DNA from: Cafeteria roenbergensis | Lineage: Eukaryota > Sar > Bigyra > Bicosoecida > Cafeteriaceae | Reading direction: 5' to 3' | Assembly: GCA_008330645.1 (NCBI GenBank) | Contig: VLTN01000026.1 | Location: forward strand, 124,001 to 188,000 | DNA: 64,000 nucleotides | Part shown: piece after piece, positions 3,712 to 19,455 of the stretch | Position numbering within the stretch: the stretch's first letter is position 1 | How the letters are laid out: the number at the start of each line of letters is the position of its first letter | The notes under the pieces: generated by a model | The model's database searches: none | What the model was told of the DNA's origin: nothing | The model's input: only the letters and a program-made list of their open reading frames with translations | Program-made: the position numbers and the translations under genes

Positions 3712-5252
3712 TCAAGCCGTCACGGCGATGCCCGCCTTGGCGTAACGGGGAAGCATGGCACGCTTCTCCTCAGGGCTCATGGCTTCGTCTGTGAAGACGA
3801 AGCGGATGCCGCTCGGGCCAGCGACGGCGGCGGCCGTAGCAACCTCCACTGTGTTCACAGCGGCGGGGCCAGCACCGGCACCGGCGCCGGCGCCAGCGGC
3901 GCCACCAGCAGCTGCGGGGGCGGCGGCGGCCGAGTGGGCGGGGGTCCCGCTCTCCCCCGCGGCGTGCTGCGCTGCAGGCATCACCGGGAGCGGGCTCTGC
4001 AGGCCGCCCATGCCGGACGGGGGAGGCGCCAGAGCCGACCCGTAGCCGTTGGACACGGAGGGCACGGAGGGCATGCCGAGCGAGCGACCGGGCGTGAGGG
4101 GCGCGGCGGGCGCGGCGGGCGCGGCGCTCCCCGGCGCGGAGGGGCCGGTCGGAGCCGCGCTCGCGGCCGCTGCTGGGGCGGGTTGCGGGTGGGGGGGCAG
4201 GTGGCGCATGTGTGGGGGCTGGGGGTAGCCGCCCGGGCCCATGTGCGGGGGCGGGGCCCCGTAGGCGGGCCCTCCGTATGCAGGGGGGGCGTAGGAGGGG
4301 GCCCCATAGGCGGGGGCCCCATAGGCCGGGGCCCCGTATGCCGGGGCCCCATAGGGAGGGTGGTACGGCGCGGCGCCATAGGGAGCGTGGCCGTGAGGCG
4401 GGCCCCCATAGGCGGGCTGGCCGTACGGCTGCGGCGGGGCGCCGTAGGGAGCGCCCCACCCAGCAGGGGCGGGCTGACCGGGCATTCCACCGTGCGCGCC
4501 TGGCAGGCCAGCGGGGGCTCCGCCTGGCGCCGCTGCGGCAGCGCCTGGACCCGGCGGCGCAAGCGCGGCGGCGCCAGGAGCAGCCCCTGCCGCCCCGGGC
4601 ACGGCCGCCGCAACCGGGTCCACGACAGCCACGCCCACGGGGACACCCGCGGCCGCAGCCGCCCCCGCGCCCGCCACCGCTGCCAGCGCCTCCTTGGCCG
4701 CCGGGTCGCCGTGCTCCGCCATGAGCTGGTGCATGAACCACGCGGGCGCCCCGTCCATTCCCACGCAGTTGATGTTAGGGTCGTCGTGGCCCTCCTTGGC
4801 GTTGGGAACGCGCTTCAGCTGCACCTTGTGCACCCCGTCGAGGTGGTGGCGCATCGCCGACAGCGTCCGGAGCTTGCGATTGCACTCCACGCACCGGAAG
4901 TGGCGAGCCTGCGCAACGCGCAGCAAGGGGGAGCATGCGTCAACAGAGTTTGGGGGTATTGGCGGGCTGCGCCTCGGCAACCGGCCGCGCGTCCACCGCA
5001 ACCGGGGCAGAGGGGGATGGCTTAGGGACGGTGGGCCATGCCAAACGGGAGCGGCGCGTTCGGGCCAAGCGGCGCTCCGTGCGCGCTGCGCTGCAGGGCG
5101 GGCGGCGCTGCACGTCGAGCGCAGGCAACGGCTTGCCTTCGCACCTGTTGGTGAGCCACGAGCGTGGTCTCGTCCTGGAACTCCCGCATGCAGTAGAAGC
5201 AGATGCTTGGCAGCTTCGCCTTTGCGCTGCCGCCGCGTCCTTTGCGCCCCAT
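3712..5252 (-). CDS. BUGZ: BuGZ/ZNF207-family zinc finger protein with Tyr-Pro-Gly low-complexity tail
   Basis: C2H2 zinc-finger protein of the BuGZ/ZNF207 (plant SUF4) family; animal BuGZ loads Bub3 on kinetochores, binds microtubules and phase-separates through its disordered tail. Exons 5145-5252 and 3712-4908 (36 and 398 codons, phase 0; the donor GTGCGA is atypical for this window). Exon 1: MGRKGRGG, then CFYCMREFQDETTLVAHQQ; exon 2 begins ARHFRCVECNRKLRTLSAM and HHLDGVHK, the same order as human CWYCNRDFDDEKILIQHQ, KHFKCHICHKKL, HCMQVHK. VPNAKEGHDDPNINCVGMDG matches the human VPNAIPG...YGMEGIP block. The remaining 300 residues are Pro/Gly/Ala/Tyr-rich with tandem YGAPA repeats near the middle. 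434 residues in all. No clear GLEBS (Bub3-binding) motif was recognised, so a Bub3 role is inferred only from the family. Confidence 0.87.
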
Positions 5253-5531
5253 GGCTCCTGCTCCGCTGCGACTGGCCCCGCCCTGCTACGCAGGCGCTGC
5301 GCCTGGTCTGCACTGGCCCGAACGAGCTGGGGACCTGCGCGATCTGGAGCGTGCTCCGCTCGTGTGCCGGTCGTGGCGCCGCCAGCTGGCAGAGCTGCTC
5401 GAGCGCGCGAGCCAATTGCAACCCGAGCGCCACCTGAGTGGACGCCAAGCCCCTGCGGAGAGGACCGGAGCGCGCGGGGCCGGAAGCCAGGCAGCGGGGC
5501 TCAGCCCTCCGCCGGATGGGCAAGCGGAGCC

Positions 5532-7256
5532 ATGGCTGACGACGACGGAGGCTGTTCTGGCCCGCTCGACCCAGCCGCCCTCTTGTCGGGCGTCAGCGGA
5601 GACTGGGCATGGCTGGGAGAGTGTTCGGCACAGGCCGCAGAACTGTGCGGCGCAGCGAGCGGGCAGGACGCCGCGCTCCTGCGCGACTCGGCCGTCGCCG
5701 GCCCGATGGCGCGGGCAATGGTGGCTCACGAGCGGCTGGCCACGCCGCGCGCCCTGGCATGGCTGGCGGCCACGCGACGCCTGCAGGGCTGCACCGCGCT
5801 CGCGGAAGGGGAAGCGACCGTCACCGAGGCGGAGTTTCGTCTCGCGCCCTACGAAGACGACGAGTCAGTCGGCGGGGCGGCAGAGGCGAGAGGCGGCGAG
5901 GCCGCCGATGGGGGCGCGCGCGGCGAGGGCGCAGCGCTGCCTGGCCACTCGACAGGCACGGGTGGCGGGATGGAGCAGTGGGCGAAGCTCGCGGGAGGCA
6001 GGGCGGTGCAGTGCCTCGCCGTTGCCCCGCAGTTCCGGCGGGGCTGGGAGACGGCTCTCACTGCGCATTCATCGGGCGAGGGCGGAAAGGGCGAGTGCGA
6101 CGGTGGCCACGACGCATCCGGCTCAGAGAACGGCGGCAGACCGGACGCACACGGAGCCGCGCCGACAGCCGCCGCGTTCGCGAGCGCGCTCTGGGACCTG
6201 CCCCGGGAAGACACTCTGGCCGCCGCTGCCGCGAGCGTGGCGCCGACCGTTGACATCCCGAGCCCCCCCTGCGCGCGGGGGCGCCGGAGCGGGACCGTTG
6301 CCGCCGCCCAGGCCGCCGAAACCGGAGACGGGAGTGGCGCAAGGGTGCTTCGCTCGCCAGGGTCCGAGCGGGCCGCGCAATGGCTGACGGCTGAGTCGCC
6401 GGTCGCCTGCGTGCTCGGGCCGGAGCTGATGCCTGGCGCGTCGGACAACGCGGCCGCGGCGCACCCGGTGGCGGCGACGGCTCCGCTGGGCCCGCGACCG
6501 CTGGCGCAGGAGGAGCACGGTACGGACGAGGGGAGGGCAGCCGTGCTGCTGTGGGAGGTGAGTGCGCCCCCGCCGGAGCAGGCGCCGCGGGGACGGGGCA
6601 GGCCGCGGAGGGAACGCGCAGACGCTGCGCGTGGAGAGCTGCTGGCGGTCGTGGAGTCGCTGGCGTCCTCCACGGTGCAGGGGCTGCTCGAGGCTTGCAC
6701 CAGCGCCCTGGGTGGGGGTGGGCGGCCCAGCAGCGCGGCTGCGATTGTCGGCGGCGGAATCGTGGCCGAGACAGGCGGCGTCAGCGGCTCCAGCGCTGGT
6801 GGCGGGTCGGTGGGCAGGTGGCTGCAGCGGTGGAGCGAGGCGCTGGAGCCGACGGCCATGCCGTCCGGAATGGCCGGGCTGGTGGCGCGGCGGGCTGGTG
6901 CGGTGCGGGTGGGTGACCTGCGGCCCCGCTTGGCTGGGCGCTTCGTCCTGCTGCTTGCCGGGGACGCGGGCAGCGGGGACGGGCGGTGGTACGAGATGCG
7001 GTGCGTGGACGTCCGGCAGCGGTGCGCGCACGACGACCCCAGGGACAGCTCGTTCCCGGCGGCAGTGTTCGCCAGGCTGACGCACCGTGCTGCGGCTAGC
7101 TGCTCCCGATGCGGGGTTCGACCCGGCTGCCACGCGGTGGCGGGCGGGGCGCTCGCGTGGCTTCCGGTGGACCCTGGCGACGAGGGTGCCGCCGTGTGCG
7201 GCCCGTGCTTCGAAGCGCTGCGCGAGGCGGGCGCCTTTGACGAGGGCGAGTGGTGA
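5532..7256 (+). CDS. Hypothetical protein, 574 residues, C-terminal Cys cluster
   Basis: Not recognised. Open from ATG 5532 (a Kozak-like GCCATGGCT context) to 7256 with no intron needed. The start was chosen because it is the first in-frame ATG beyond the shared promoter with the BuGZ gene, 279 bp away. The first 110 residues are helix-rich with acidic stretches, the middle is a Gly/Ala/Ser low-complexity region, and about residues 370-480 are more ordered (LLAVVESLASSTVQGLLEAC, and LRPRLAGRFVLLLAGD). The C-terminus has CSRCGVRPGC followed 26 residues later by CGPCFEALR, two CxxC-like pairs that could bind one zinc ion. Codon use matches the neighbours. A zinc-ribbon adaptor role is only a guess. 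Confidence 0.6.
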   Translation: MADDDGGCSGPLDPAALLSGVSGDWAWLGECSAQAAELCGAASGQDAALLRDSAVAGPMARAMVAHERLATPRALAWLAATRRLQGCTALAEGEATVTEAEFRLAPYEDDESVGGAAEARGGEAADGGARGEGAALPGHSTGTGGGMEQWAKLAGGRAVQCLAVAPQFRRGWETALTAHSSGEGGKGECDGGHDASGSENGGRPDAHGAAPTAAAFASALWDLPREDTLAAAAASVAPTVDIPSPPCARGRRSGTVAAAQAAETGDGSGARVLRSPGSERAAQWLTAESPVACVLGPELMPGASDNAAAAHPVAATAPLGPRPLAQEEHGTDEGRAAVLLWEVSAPPPEQAPRGRGRPRRERADAARGELLAVVESLASSTVQGLLEACTSALGGGGRPSSAAAIVGGGIVAETGGVSGSSAGGGSVGRWLQRWSEALEPTAMPSGMAGLVARRAGAVRVGDLRPRLAGRFVLLLAGDAGSGDGRWYEMRCVDVRQRCAHDDPRDSSFPAAVFARLTHRAAASCSRCGVRPGCHAVAGGALAWLPVDPGDEGAAVCGPCFEALREAGAFDEGEW

Positions 7257-12044: not shown

Positions 12045-15000
12045 TCACCTCTCTGCGTGCAGCGCCTCCATGAGGCCGGCGGCCTTCGCCACGGTCGCGG
12101 GCGGGACGCCAGCAGACTTGGCTGCGACAAGCCCAAATGATCCCTCGGCCACGCCCGGCACGATGTGGTGCGTGAACACGGGCGCCTCGCCAGGACTGCC
12201 CAGCCGCACGGCGATGGTGCGACAGCGCACCGCGGACGCGGCGCACGCGCAGCCGTTGCCGGTGGGGTCCTCCTTGGCACGGAAGGCGTCGCACGCCGCC
12301 ATGGCGACCGCCAACCGCCGCGTGGCGGCAGCTCGCATGGGCACGCTGTCGCAGGCCGGGCAGCTCTGCGACCGCTCCCAGTCCATGTCGGCCAGCTCGT
12401 GGTAGTGCGTGGCGAAGAGCGTGCGCGCGTCAATGCCCGGCGCCGCTAGGTCGTGCAGAGCCGCAGCGGCAATGGAAAGCCCGTCCACGGCCGCAGTGCC
12501 TCTGCCAAGCTCGTCGACGACCACGAGCGACGACGGGCCCGCATGCCGCAGAATGCCTGCGGCCTCTTCCATCTCAACCAGGAAAGTCGAGAGCTCGCGC
12601 GCAAGGTCGTCGCTCGCCCCGACACGCGCGAACACCCGGTCGCAAGCGCCCACGACGGCGGCCTCGGCGGGAACGAAGCTCCCCATCTGTGCCAGCAGAG
12701 CCGCTTGCGCCGCGGCCCGCAGCACGGTGCTCTTGCCGGCCACGTTGGGGCCCGTGAGCACCCACTGCCTGCCCTCCTGTCGCAGGGCCTCCGCTGCGGG
12801 GGCCATTCGCTCTGCGACGTCGCGAGCCGAGGCCGCAGCAGACCCCACCGGCGCCGCAAACGGCAGGCCAGCCGCTGCAGCGCTTGCGCCGGCCCCCGAA
12901 GCCGCTGCCCCTTCGCCCGCGCCGCCGCTCGCACCACTGACCCTGCCCCGCAGCACCACCTGCAGCGGAACAAAGGACTTGGCACTCGCCCCGGCGCGAT
13001 CCTCCCGCCGCGCCTCGCTGCCCGGCCCCGAGACCAGCCACGCGTCCGATCCGGACGCAGCTCCCTCCCCTCCTCCGCCGCCCTCGCTCCCCACGGAGCC
13101 CGGGCCGGCCGTGCCTCCCTCGCCGCCGAGCCCGTCCCGCGCCGACCCCGCGCCCTCCGCCGCGTCCGCGCCCGAGCCGGCCCCTGAGGCCGCCCCCCAC
13201 CCATCCATCAAGCCCCTCTCCACCACCACGTGCCTCAGCCCCTCTAGGTAGAGCGACGTGCCGAGGTCCTCCTCCACCCCGCTGCCGCCCGCGCCGCGCT
13301 GGGCCGCTGTCGAGCAGGAGAGCCCTAGCTCCCGCTTGGCCTCCCCGGGCCCCAGCACGTGGGGGCGGCAGAGCCGCAGCTCTTGCGCTGCGAATGCCAG
13401 CCCCGCCGTGACGTCCAGCACCGCCAGCGCGGTCAGCACGACGCCGATCTCAGGGGCCGCTGAGGCGATGCGGGCGGCAAGCCTGTCAAACGCCTCGCCC
13501 TCGAGGCGCCCCACGCGCTCTGCCGCCTCCGACGCCGCCCGGTCCAGCTCCAAGAGGCTCCTAGACTTGAACCGCACCGATGACTTGAGAGTGCGGACTC
13601 GCCACAGCGCCCCGCTTTCCACCGCCGCGGCCACGCCGCTGGCCTCCTCGAACCGCCGCGGGACGTCAACGAAGAAGCCCCCCTCGCCAACTCGCTTCAC
13701 TCGCACGCCGCTCACCCCGGTCAGCGCCCGGAACTCCGCTTCTGCGGCCGCAACGGCCTCTGCGGCGCCGTCGCGGAGCGCGTACGCCTCGTCCAGCGCT
13801 GGAAGGTAGCCCCGTCGCAGCCAGCCGCCGTTGCCGCAGCTTCCCGCGTCCTCCGCGCCGTCTCCAGTCGACTCACTCTCGCCGGCGCTCCCCGCGCGAG
13901 AAGCAGCAGAAGCACCGCCGGCCGTTTCTTCCTCGGCCTCGTCCGCCTCCGACGCGCGCCTGGCCGTGGCGGCAGCCGCAGCGGCGGCGGCGGCCGCAGC
14001 ACGGTTTGCCGCCATCCGAGGAGACATCCCGAGGACTCCCACGCCAGCTGTTGCGCCCGCCGCCGCCGGCACCTCCTCCACGAGTGCCTCCCGCAGGTGC
14101 CGCAGCAGGTCAGTCACCGCGCTCGCCCCCTCTCCCACCGTTGAGGCCAGGGCTGATCGGAGCACTCCCTCGTGCACAGCTGGACGAGCGGCATCGCCGG
14201 GCGAAGCGTCGGCGGAGCCAGCATCGCCCCGGTCCACGGCCAGGCCGAGCGCAGCCTGCAGGCTGGCGGCCAGGGAGGGGGCGGGGCCGGTGCTCTCCCA
14301 GTCAAACTCCGCGCGGGCCGCAGCTTCCAGCGCCGACCACGGCGTTGCGTCGTCCCAGGCAGGCGCGAGGTCGCCGCTGCCGCCGCCACCGCCGCCGCCG
14401 CCGCCGCCGTCCCCCTGCACGGCAGCCTGACCCCGCGCTTCCTGCGTGGTCTCCCGACCCAGCGTCCTGGCCAGGGCGTCAGAGGCCTCCGCGGCGGCCA
14501 CGAGCGCCCCTCTCAGGGTGGCCAGGTCTGAAACCGACGCCCTGGACCGCCCGAGCGCGAGCCTTCGCACCGCGCGCTCCGCGTCGCCCACGCGGGACAG
14601 CGCGGATCTGACCGCCGTGAGCAGCACGACACGCCCCTGCACTGCCTCGACAGCATCAAGGCGCCGGCGCACGGCCGGCGCTGACGCCAGGGGCAGTCCA
14701 AGCCGCCGGTCCAGGAGCCTGCCGCCCCCCGCAGTGCCCGTCTTGTCGAGCACGTGAAGGAGCGAGCCCTGCGCGCGGCGGCGGGCTCCCGGCGCCATGG
14801 ACCGGTGAAGCTCCATCGCCCGCAGCGTGGAAGCGTCCATGACCACCACTGGCGGCGGCTTCCAGGCCGCCGACGTGCGCCAGTCCCGCACAGCCCCGGC
14901 CCCAGTGGCGCCACCGACAAGAGCGCGGGCTGTCGCCGCAGCCCGGCCTGCTGTGGCCGGCGAGCCACCCGCCGGACTGTCCGGAGCGAGCACCCCCGCG

Positions 15001-16597
15001 GCCGGCTCGTCGCCAGGGCCTTCCAGCGGGCCCTGCGCTTCGCCGTCCGCACGGGCCGATGCGCCGCCTGTCCAGCCGGGGGCGTCCACGTGAACCAGCA
15101 TCGGCGGCCCCAGCGAGGAGTCGAACGGCAGGGCAGGCGGTAGCGGCCCGTCGGCCGTCCAGCCCGCATCGGGCCCATCGGGGAGGCCCCCCCAGCCGCC
15201 GCAGGCGCCGGTCCACGCGACGTACTCTGCAGCGGCGACGGCAGCTCGCAGCCGGGGGCCGGAGAGGCCGGCCGCCCAGTGCTCTTCCGCCAGCGAGCCA
15301 GGGGTGGGGCAGCGCCGGGCCAGGCGGCTGCGCAGCGCAGCCTCGGCCTGCTGCCCGGCCGAGAGCGCGCTGGGAGCGGCCGCATCCCGACCCGGCGACG
15401 TCGCGCTGTCCGCCGGCGCGTGCGAAGGGGCTCCCTCCGCTGCGAGCCAGCGCTCTGCCAGCCAGGCGGTCCTCGCGTCCGCGCAGCCCGACACCGCGCC
15501 GCGGTGCAGCGCGGAGGCGAGACGCCTGACTCCCTCCTCAGCCGGGCTGGTCGGGGGCGCAGGGAGCACCACCTCGGCGGGGGGGTAGCGGGCAAGCAGG
15601 GCCGGGACAGCGTCCCAGGAGGGCGCCTCCGCCAGAAACAGCTGGCCCGTGGTCACGTCCGCCCAGGCCACGCCGATGCGCGAGCACCCGGGAGCGGGGG
15701 GCGAAACGGCCGCCACCAGCGGGGAGGGCGACGACGACAACGCGGAGAAGGAGAAACCCGGTGACGCGGACCCGAAGCCGTCGCTGCCGGCGCCAGCGCC
15801 GCCCGGCCAGCCACCTGAGGCAGCGACATCCGACGCCGTGCCGGGCGTGAGGATTCTGGTTACTTGCCGCTCGACGAGGGTCCCGGGCCGCGGCGTGCCC
15901 CGCTGCTCCACAACTGCCACCCGCTTCCCGGCCTCGAGCAGACGCGCCCAGTGAGTTGGAGCCGCGTGCAGAGGCACGCCCGCGAGCGGCACGGCGCGGC
16001 CCTCGTGGGTCCCGCGCGTGGTGCAGTTGATGCCCAGCAGCTGGGCGGCCAGGAACGCGTCTTCCCAAAAGATTTCAAAGAACTCCCCCATCTGCGGAGC
16101 GTCGCAGTCGAGGCGGCGGGGGCATGCGGTCGCAGCACGCCCAGTCAAGCAGGGGCGGCGTGCCTGCACCCCACCTCCGAGGCAGAGGCGAGCGTGGCGG
16201 GGGAGTGGGGGGGGGAGGGAGAGGGCGCATGGGGCCGACGCGGCCGCACACACACACCCTCCCCCGCACCGGACATAGTTGGCGCGACCAAAAAGCGAAT
16301 GCAGGGGCGACAGCGACTCGCCCCCTCATCGAGGCCAGCAAGGGAGCCGTCGTCGATTCCCGAGCAAACATTTCTCACTTGAAACATCAGCAAGTCGCAG
16401 CCGCGCAAACGGTACGACGATCGCAGGCCAAGGTACTGTTTCATCACGGGCGTACCCCGGATCGCCGTTCCCGCACTCGCAGCGGCGGTCCTGGAAAGCG
16501 CGCGCAGCGCGGCGCCGGCTGGCCTGCGACAGTGCGCCGAAGCCGCCGACCTGGAGGCGCTTGCCCGGGCGCCTCGGCCGAGCACGCGCCGCTGCAT
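12045..16597 (-). CDS. Organelle-targeted bacterial-type MutS mismatch-repair ATPase
   Basis: DNA mismatch-recognition ATPase of the MutS1/MSH1 group, probably acting in an organelle. Exon 1 (16379-16597) starts [20 protein letters not shown], an Arg/Ser/Ala-rich presequence with no acidic residues, and ends [10 protein letters not shown]...LLMFQ. Exon 2 (12045-16091) opens [20 protein letters not shown]: the joined domain I carries the mismatch-wedge Phe-x-Glu (FFE). Next is [20 protein letters not shown], then [11 protein letters not shown]. The core has [14 protein letters not shown]. The ATPase has Walker [10 protein letters not shown], Walker [12 protein letters not shown] and ATHYHEL; the end is [20 protein letters not shown]. 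1421 residues, longer than bacterial MutS (about 850) because of Gly/Ala/Ser-rich inserts, including a run of nine Gly near 14384-14411. No GIY-YIG nuclease domain (as in plant MSH1) was seen. Whether the target is the mitochondrion or a plastid cannot be told. Confidence 0.9.
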
Positions 16598-16732
16598 CCC
16601 GGATCCGTGCCAGAGTCGGCGCGTCTGGGTGGGGAGGGCGCGGCCCGAACGGCCTTGCTGGCCCGGCGCCGCACACGGCTGTGGCTGGCTGCCTGCTCCC
16701 TCTGCCGGGGCTCTGGAAGTACATAATCTTGA

Positions 16733-16760
16733 CCTTACAGCCAAATACCGTTTAGTAAGG
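16733..16760. repeat. Inverted repeat CCTTAC...GTAAGG
   Basis: CCTTAC at 16733-16738 and GTAAGG at 16755-16760 are perfect reverse complements around a 16-nt spacer. This lies 136 bp before the MutS start codon and shares the CTTAC(AG) word with the dyad array near 17300-17450, about 550 bp away. Confidence 0.6.
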
Positions 16761-17290
16761 CTTAAATATTAGTGTTGACACAAGCGACTCGGATTCTGCT
16801 GCCGCAGCTGTAAGCTTTCGAGCTCTGCTGGGCAGCTCGAAATCTGAACGCAGTGCTGCTGGTCCCCCAGGAGCTTTGTCGGGCGAAAGCCGGCTGCAAG
16901 TAGCACGTGTGAACGATTTGACGCGATGGGCATGGGTGTGGCCGACGCGCCCGTGCCGAGGCGTGAGATCGTTGCGGATGCTGTCGAGTCCGCGCAAAGC
17001 ACCGCATGGACCTCCGCAGCACTAAGGAGCCTTGCATCCATGTCGCGGGATGCATCAAGGAGAAGCTCATAGCACGGGTGGTCCGCGTCGCGCCGCGCGG
17101 CGACGATAAACTGAAGGAATGAGCAAGCCGAAGCACGGCTCGCGCCTTCCAGCCCGGCGCAAAGGCCATCCTCCACCGGCTCGTGGTCAGGCAGACTTGC
17201 CGAGACCCATGCTGCGGTTCGGGCGCGAAATCGTCACCCCAAGGCCATGCTAGGGCACGGGGAGCAGCCGTAAGGTATGCCGGCAGAAAA

Positions 17291-17453
17291 GCTTACAACG
17301 CCTGTCTGTAACCCTTACAGTGGCCGAAAAATTGTTAACTTTTGCTAACAAAAATTTGGACTCTGCCAGGCTTACAGAGGTCTCTGTAAGGGTTACAGAT
17401 GCTCTGTAAGCCTTACAACCTTACCGTAAGGCTCTGTAACCCTTACAGAGCAT
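17291..17453. promoter_or_regulatory. Array of TGTAA-N3-TTACA dyad motifs
   Basis: Several perfect or near-perfect dyads sit within 163 bp: CTGTAACCCTTACAG at 17306-17320; CTTACAGAG-GT-CTCTGTAAG at 17371-17390; TCTGTAAGGGTTACAGA at 17383-17399; CTGTAAGCCTTACAA at 17404-17418 (one outer mismatch); CCTTACCGTAAGG at 17419-17431; and GCTCTGTAACCCTTACAGAGC at 17431-17451 with 9-nt perfect arms. An imperfect AT-rich dyad (TTGTTA...TAACAA, 17332-17351) lies between. The array ends about 335 bp before the cyclin start codon. Spacing of exactly 3 nt in four sites looks like a binding site for a dimeric DNA-binding protein; a cruciform or RNA hairpin cluster, or an end of a small DNA transposon, are alternatives. 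Confidence 0.65.
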
Positions 17454-17787
17454 ATGTACTTCCAAGCCCCCCGGCCAGTCGACTGGCCGGCAGAGCTGCG
17501 TTTCTCCCCGCTGGCGGGCTGAGGCAAATCGGTCGTCGAGTGAGGCAGCGTTCGCCCAGCGCCCGCAGCACTCGCGCAGCGCAGTCGCCGCATGGTGAGG
17601 TTTGTGCTAGGCGCACCGCACGAGCAGGGCAGTGGAACACGGCCCGCCTGCCCGTCCTGGGCCCTGCGCCTCCGCGCTGCTCCTCGACGGTGCGCTCGAT
17701 CGCCTGCTGGCCACGGTTGGTCCTTGCGCCTCCCCCGACACGCGACCTACTGCCGCGCAGGCCAGCCGCGACGACTCCTCGATTGAC

Positions 17788-19455
17788 ATGGACGCACACG
17801 GGGACCTGGAGACCCGCGCCGTGGTGCGCGAGGAGACCAGGGCCGGCGTGAACCCCACGGATGTGAGTTCGCCGTTTGCTTGTGCAGCGTTTCTTGCCGC
17901 GGCCCCCCAGCTGTCCAACGCGAGCTTGACTGGGATCGCCCGCCCCGCGGGTGGAGGGGATCGCGCGCGGTGCATCCCATGTCTGCTTCCACGTCGTGCG
18001 CCTCGCGCTTGCTGCGCCCCAGGGCGACGCCAAGCGCGCGGGATTGCCGCAGCAGCGGCCCGCAGGCCGGGCGATGCAAGGCGCTTTGAATCGAGCCGCC
18101 CTGGCCCATGCAAGCGCTCAGCCGATCGCCGCCCCCGATGCACCCGACCTTGACCGTCGCAGGAGGCGCTCAACCGTGTGATGGGAGCGTCCGTGGAGGC
18201 CATGCAGGCCAACTTGCGGGAGATTGAGATGCGCGGCAAAATGCACAACCCCGACGCGAAGTGGCTGCTTGTGAGCCCTGGGCTCGCGCGAGCGCCCCGC
18301 CTGCCCCACTGGCACCGTTCGGCCCTAGCGGTCAATGCCGCGCGGGCAGCCCAGGCGTGAAAGCCCCAGGGCGCGGTCTTTGGGCACTGCGGTCCCTCCA
18401 TTTTGAGCCCAATCGCCCACCGTGACCGTGCATCACCCGGCGCTCCAACTTCGCGCGCGCCCGCGCCCCGTCCCCGTCCGCAGCATCGCCGAGGCATGGT
18501 TGACTGGATCTGCGAGGCCTGCGAGACCTACCGGCTGGCTCGCACCACAGCGCACGTTGCCTGCGAAATGATGGATCGCTTCTGCGCGGTCGACGAGGTG
18601 CCCACTCACCGGCTGGCTCTGGTCTCCCTGGCCGCCATTCAGATCGCTGCCAAGTACGAGGAGCAAGAGGAGGACGTGCCGCCCGTGCGTGAGCTGATCA
18701 AGCGCTCCGGCCACCCCATTCCCGAGGCGCAGCTGCACCAGATGGAGGTGCTGATGCTCACTGCCGCCGACTGGTGCTGCACCGCCGTCACGCCGATGCA
18801 CTTTGTCACTCTCCTCGCCAGCCGGGGCGTTGTCTTCCCTGACGACGTGGATCTCTCCGGCAAGCACCGCTCAGAGCACGTGGGCCGGTTCATGGACTTC
18901 TTCGCCGACCTCTGCTGCCAGGACTACGCCTTCGCGGCCTGCAGGCCCTCGGCCGTTGCCGGCGCCATTGTCCTCGCCAGCCGGCGGGCCCTGCGCTTCC
19001 GCAACGTTTGGCACGCGCGCCTGCCCGAGGTGCTCGACGCCTCGGTGCGCGAAGTCGCGGCCGTGTTCTTCCAGCTCTGGGCCGTGTACAAGGCGCAGTT
19101 CGGAGACGAGGTGACCGCCATCGACGCGGAGTACGCCCGCTCGGGAGTTCACGACAACGTCCACTGGCTCCGCCACACCCTCGAGAGCAGGCCGACCGCA
19201 GCGCCGCACGCCGCGGCAGTGCGCTCCTCCAGGGCGGCCCAGCCGCCACCACCGGGCGCCTTTGCGGCCCAAACCCCCCCTGTCCATGCGAATCCCGAGT
19301 TCGCGGAGGCGGCCCACATGACGGGCGGTCGCGTGGACGCTGACCCCGCCCTCAAGGCCGTGGACTACGCCACGCCCGCGACAGCGATGCAGGACACCTG
19401 GCCGCTGTCCGACGCCTCCCAAAGAGCGCAGGCCAGGGACGCTCGCCGCCGCTAG
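17788..19455 (+). CDS. Cyclin-J-like cyclin
   Basis: Regulatory subunit for a cyclin-dependent kinase. Exons 17788-17862, 18163-18270 and 18484-19455 (phase 0 throughout, donors GTGAGT and GTGAGC) give 384 residues. The N-terminal cyclin box reads LREIEMRGKMHNPDAKWLL, MVDWICEACETYRLARTT, MDRF, then AAKYEEQEEDVPPVREL, including the conserved Lys/Glu pair that contacts CDK. The second fold has TAVTPMHFVTLL, then DFFADLCCQDYAFAACRPS and LASRRALRF, resembling cyclin J ([24 protein letters not shown]). After the box is an 80-residue disordered Ala/Pro tail. The start is the first in-frame ATG (17788); a longer N-terminus on another exon is possible. Cyclin J is best known from animals; cyclin D or another cyclin type remains an alternative. 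Confidence 0.82.

Follow-up and report, generated by a model that had tools for sequence, protein, structure and literature searches.

We put at about 0.93 the probability that positions 16708-17470 of the window hold a full-length copy of a non-autonomous DNA transposon that was mobile recently, has short inverted ends and is flanked by a CNG target duplication, and that the dense array of TGTAA/TTACA dyads at 17291-17453 is its right subterminal region. The window is the whole 64-kb stretch that was analysed, C26:124001-188000 in a genome of 36.3 Mb and 167 contigs. The cyclin gene in it, together with junctions that look by eye like splice sites, indicates a eukaryotic host. The regulatory reading of the array in the first-pass annotation gives way to a mobile element. 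That annotation had itself counted the terminus of a small transposon among its alternatives, and dispersed near-identical copies, inverted ends and target duplications now bear this out.

Copies, ends and target duplication

A genome-wide count of the motif CTGTAA-N3-TTACAG, which the first-pass annotation had proposed as a check, found 16 exact matches. All 16 lie inside copies of one dispersed element, the outcome named there as speaking against a regulatory array; 15 fall in five groups sharing spacings of 78 and 50 bp, and the remaining one belongs to a truncated copy. Allowing one mismatch gave 37 dyads per strand and 41 with the reversed control; ten of the 37 did not belong to known copies, and of these a pair on C5 was separated by 264 bp.

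A genome search with 801 bases around the array returned at least 20 matches. Those listed comprise five full copies on C26, C1, C28, C45 and C12 (99-100% identity), a copy without ends on C13, a fragment on C27, eight pieces on C107 and C114 that add up to four copies of a short version, and five self-matches of the array in the reverse orientation. Any two of the five full copies are separated by 2-13 mismatches and 0-2 gaps, or 2-15 positions altogether, and the flanks of full copies on different contigs look dissimilar by eye. The short version (246, 246, 246 and 249 bp) retains roughly the outer 100 bp on the left and 150 bp on the right, with most of the array, and is bordered by a CAG duplication. 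Its four copies have common flanks and are therefore counted as one insertion. They lie at C107:34783 and 37575 and at C114:6510 and 9294, in units 2784-2792 bp apart with the same flanks; an Rfam search of the two loci with these units gave no match. Truncated and decayed copies are also present in the genome. On C27 the matching sequence falls into two pieces separated by about 2.1 kb; this relative is perhaps a longer and more ancient member of the family.

In the window the element measures 763 bp (16708-17470, plus strand), its ends being set by the target duplication, an equal CCG on either side (16705-16707 and 17471-17473). The left terminal inverted repeat, GGGCTCTGGAAGTACATA (16708-16725, plus strand), and the right one, GGGGCTTGGAAGTACATA as read on the minus strand (17453-17470), match as inverted repeats at 15 of 18 positions; the ends begin GGGCTC and GGGGCT. 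The 3-bp CNG duplication is perfect at four of the six insertions, with CAG at two (the short version included) and CCG (C26) and CGG at the two others. It is imperfect at C12 (CGG/CGA), and at C45 a CTG faces a damaged right end and the duplication is missing. The length of the duplication is not fully settled, since a 2-bp reading (CN) fits five of the six insertions and would give symmetrical first bases to the ends.

The dyad array and its neighbourhood

Six dyad-symmetric sites were located in the 163 bp of the array, consistent with the six or more first noticed. Four of them had been described as sharing one half-site and a 3-nt spacer. This is exact for three, 17306-17320 (spacer CCC), 17384-17398 (GGG) and 17434-17448 (CCC), while the fourth, 17404-17418 (GCC), carries one mismatch (TTACAA). 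The perfect 9-nt arms reported at 17431-17451 are read in the sequence as GCTCTGTAA-CCC-TTACAGAGC. The overlapping dyad at 17371-17390 is also present, in the form CTTACAGAG-GT-CTCTGTAAG, with longer arms (9 nt) and a shorter centre (2 nt) than described. The sixth site is CTTAC-C-GTAAG at 17420-17430. Two further half-site copies lie towards the left end of the element, CTTACAG at 16734-16740 and CTGTAAG at 16808-16814. The order and spacing of the dyads are the same in the other full copies and largely kept in the short version.

One hundred dinucleotide shuffles of the window gave no CTGTAA-N3-TTACAG. On the plus strand of the 64 kb, all five CTGTAA and five of the six TTACAG fall within the transposon (16705-17473). 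The array is AT-richer than its surroundings, as first remarked: G+C is 44% at 17291-17453, 56% in the transposon and 70.6% elsewhere in the window. As single-stranded DNA, the array stretch is predicted to fold far more strongly than its shuffles (n=200, z -7.1).

Outside the element, an open frame for a cyclin lies on one side (18361-19455, plus strand; Pfam Cyclin_N 1e-20, Cyclin_C 2e-9) and a divergent open frame for a MutS-family protein on the other (12045-16325, minus strand; Pfam MutS domains I-V). Dense dyads in the intergenic stretch between two such genes had suggested a cis-regulatory array, on which a host transcription factor would control the cell-cycle expression of the cyclin. 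We now regard this as highly improbable: the exact motif is confined to the copies of a near-identical dispersed repeat whose surroundings otherwise differ, the array travels with the ends of the element, and eight frames within 1.5 kb per side of four other insertions gave no Pfam match (0/8) and no cyclin. Transposons can carry regulatory sites, and this copy sits between two divergent genes, so that it might have been taken over by the host and now drive or insulate the cyclin and MutS genes. Such a takeover appears very unlikely, if somewhat less so than the original regulatory reading, and the copies are too alike to reveal selection on the one in the window. A third reading starts from TGTAA as the usual polyadenylation signal of green algae; present on both strands, it would end transcription from both sides of the array. 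This is the least credible of the three. On the plus strand of the 64 kb, five of the six TGTAA and seven of the eight TTACA are inside the element, and since these motifs are nearly confined to it, the other genes of the window do not use a TGTAA signal.

The transposon reading offers another role for the dyads. By analogy with related elements, the inverted TTACAG(AG) half-sites are probably where a dimeric DNA-binding protein, provided in trans, docks. We consider docking the likeliest role because a Myb-like accessory protein of the PIF/Harbinger superfamily is thought to bind DNA, both proteins being required (according to passages of PMC2836001), and because internal sequences can matter in mPing (passages of PMC9921582). 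The docking protein would usually be this Myb-like accessory protein in the superfamily, and otherwise the transposase; once bound to the array, it would pair the two ends so that cut-and-paste transposition can proceed. The position of the array beside the cyclin gene would then reflect nothing more than the landing place of one insertion. The short version has preserved most of the array, which agrees with a role in cis; mere loss of the middle would also leave it so. The earlier suggestion of a dimeric DNA-binding protein, drawn from the inverted half-sites, stays plausible, with that protein now assigned to the transposition machinery.

Coding content and superfamily placement

Two frames of at least 150 aa are found in the 763-bp element, of 154 and 176 aa, and no complete transposase. 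The 154-aa frame (16769-17233, minus strand) has no Pfam or NCBIfam match. The genome search with it, copies and relics of the element aside, yields a match to a single gene, which starts at 147928 on C12. This gene has two exons (C12:147928-149518), the first of which (C12:147928-148527) resembles the internal frame with 46% identity over 57 aa (E 7e-13 pairwise, 1.4e-7 in the genome search). To judge from this similarity, the frame is likely a remnant of the N-terminal part of a protein encoded by the element.

On visual inspection, the second exon of the C12 gene resembles a DDE domain of Harbinger type in which the second and third catalytic residues are replaced, and the gene is perhaps a domesticated one. 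Exon 2 has no Pfam match over the cut-off (best YAcAr, E 0.14), and its predicted structure, from a two-sequence alignment, has a mean pLDDT of 35. It matches a frame on C80 (E 0.0099 in the genome search, 1e-4 pairwise) whose sole Pfam match is DDE_Tnp_4 (PF13359; E 4.6e-4, 20.3 bits, under the curated cut-off of 24.8). These similarities weakly link exon 2 of the C12 gene to PIF/Harbinger (DDE_Tnp_4) transposases. Just downstream of the gene are long repetitive open frames (LRQALRQALRHVF...; extract L077, about 4620-5600).

Eight DDE_Tnp_4 matches in the genome exceed the cut-off, and five have identical scores, which suggests a repeated autonomous family, likely one active recently. The five lie at C12:509644, C16:279944, C43:219563, C50:33724 and C138:8419, in open frames of 457-540 aa. 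None of the genes over the cut-off appeared in the genome search with the internal 154-aa frame. A 431-aa frame in the C27 relative was considered as a second protein of the element and set aside; it has no Pfam match and finds only itself in the genome.

A search of the 36.3-Mb genome by end pattern found no autonomous element with these ends. With up to two mismatches, TYKGGAAGTACATA occurs in 94 places, 56 of them forward and 38 in reverse, fewer than the 132 given by the reversed control. Away from known copies, exact matches are absent, single-mismatch matches number three and are scattered (C24, C72, C83), and the one inward-facing pair of two-mismatch sites lies on C56, 9.3 kb apart. 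Two-mismatch end sequences also recur in one orientation, in an array on C26 and as TCTGGAAGGACATC on C51, C78, C108, C112, C113 and C122. Near the start of C26 a single 14-base match returns every 3.09 kb or so (C26:10133, 13226, 16317, 19408), a recurrence pointing to a tandem array. Viral relatives were sought as well: among 40 viral-contig stretches with the 15-base end, one has the 18-base end, one has one dyad and none has both, and the stretches therefore look like chance.

On balance, and by a narrow margin, we think it likely that the element arose by internal deletion from a member of the PIF/Harbinger superfamily (PHIS), and that in target site and ends it comes nearest to the NuwaI group. 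NuwaI elements, as described in parts of PMC4482050, produce CWG duplications; their ends usually begin with GGG, their terminal inverted repeats measure 12-61 bp, and they were known only from animals as of 2015. The present element shares the GGG ends and, at 18 bp, a terminal repeat within that range, and its 3-bp duplication, here CNG, recalls the CWG type; its weak protein link to DDE_Tnp_4 may be a further likeness. In contrast to the NuwaI target as given there, the centre of its target is not confined to A/T (CCG and CGG also occur), and the one-sided GCAGAGC preference set out below is not described for NuwaI in those parts of the source. A further difference is that neither a transposase nor the Myb/SANT partner expected from the second frame of autonomous NuwaI copies was found here with the ends of the element.

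mPing and the other Tourist MITEs, which Ping/Pong mobilize, as portrayed in portions of PMC2836001 and PMC9921582, are likewise short derivatives with terminal inverted repeats that need proteins made elsewhere, produce a 3-bp duplication and have an insertion preference broader than the duplication. However, the target of mPing is TAA, and the same portions report no promoting internal sequence common to mPing and mPong, whereas the present element has an ordered array.

Membership of another superfamily, for example a CACTA-like one with duplications of 2-4 bp and possible subterminal arrays of inverted sites, seems unlikely to us. CACTA ends start with CAC and those of the element with GGG. 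The sole protein lead is to DDE_Tnp_4, in a genome where this was the transposase family searched for. In favour of such a placement, Suppressor-mutator (En/Spm, CACTA) has several internal TnpA sites, thought to join the ends (passages of PMC9921582), and duplications of the CMC group measure 2-4 bp (passages of PMC4482050). The multiple sites inside the ends make Suppressor-mutator, so far as PMC9921582 describes it in those passages, a resemblance in way of working only; it has other ends, and the element has no CACTA protein lead.

A candidate motif beside the target site

In the host DNA of the window, the candidate target-guiding motif GCAGAGC lies at 17490-17496 (plus strand), its first base 20 bp past the right end. 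Six insertions were taken into the count, with C27 and C13 left out. Beyond the right, array-bearing end, the motif is found on the plus strand at 20 bp (C26), 21 bp (C1), 32 bp (C28), 9 bp (C45, where the offset is uncertain because the end is damaged) and 20 bp (short version), that is, on the same strand within 9-32 bp at five of the six insertions; at C12 it is on the opposite strand, at 37. The decayed right end on C27 has GCAGAGG about 3 bp beyond. On the left sides, an inverted CTCTGC touches the C26 element and a GCAGAG lies further out at C28.

GCAGAGC is frequent in this DNA, with 53 occurrences on both strands of the window against 14 of the reversed form and 101 in 145 kb, and 1.5% of random positions have one within 45 bp on one strand. 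To allow for a motif picked out only in hindsight, the random test accepted any shared 7-mer (either side, same strand) in sets of six positions: five sharing one was seen in 0 of 20,000 sets and four in 23. Among the 101 occurrences no consensus wider than 7 bp is evident. The five offsets share a phase at periods of 10-11 bp (p 0.0036 when compared with offsets drawn uniformly from 4-40; n=5, periods chosen by the analyst).

The empty target site of the window would also form a perfect 30-bp palindrome, CTCTGCC...GGCAGAG, of which the first 8 bases are 16700-16707 and the other 22 are 17474-17495. Arms of 15 bp were found at none of 3000 random positions. Insertion into hairpins remains a minor lead: three further sites have 7-bp arms, as do 9.7% of random positions, and two of the six have nothing. 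A link to tRNA genes was dropped, tRNA-Leu genes being present beyond the C27 relative only and absent from the other loci scanned and from the window. The C27 genes, beyond the decayed transposon end (extract L076, 4655-5900), are four tRNA-Leu genes, three with anticodon AAG and one with CAG.

GCAGAGC resembles the half-site of the array, TTACAGAGC / TTACAGAG(C), as in GCTCTGTAACCCTTACAGAGC. The simplest account of this likeness would be one DNA-binding protein that reads both, but with six insertions the sample is small; the protein that binds the ends may choose the target as well. We advance only tentatively, as a rather doubtful proposal, the full scheme of a NuwaI-like PHIS transposon in a presumably non-animal host, in which the protein on the TTACAGAG(C) array would also grip GCAGAGC and direct insertion in one orientation at a CNG about 1-3 helical turns away (9, 20, 20, 21 and 32 bp). 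A limited literature search, itself a weak negative, found no precedent for a distant one-sided target motif.

The analysis adds a recently active non-autonomous transposon family to a compact, very G+C-rich eukaryotic genome. A young non-autonomous transposon is an ordinary kind of element, and what is unusual about this one is the possible target rule. Should further insertions obey the GCAGAGC rule, this would be a simple, testable case of an end-binding protein choosing the target. For the PIF/Harbinger superfamily, site choice through a one-sided target motif at helical spacing would, if true, be new.
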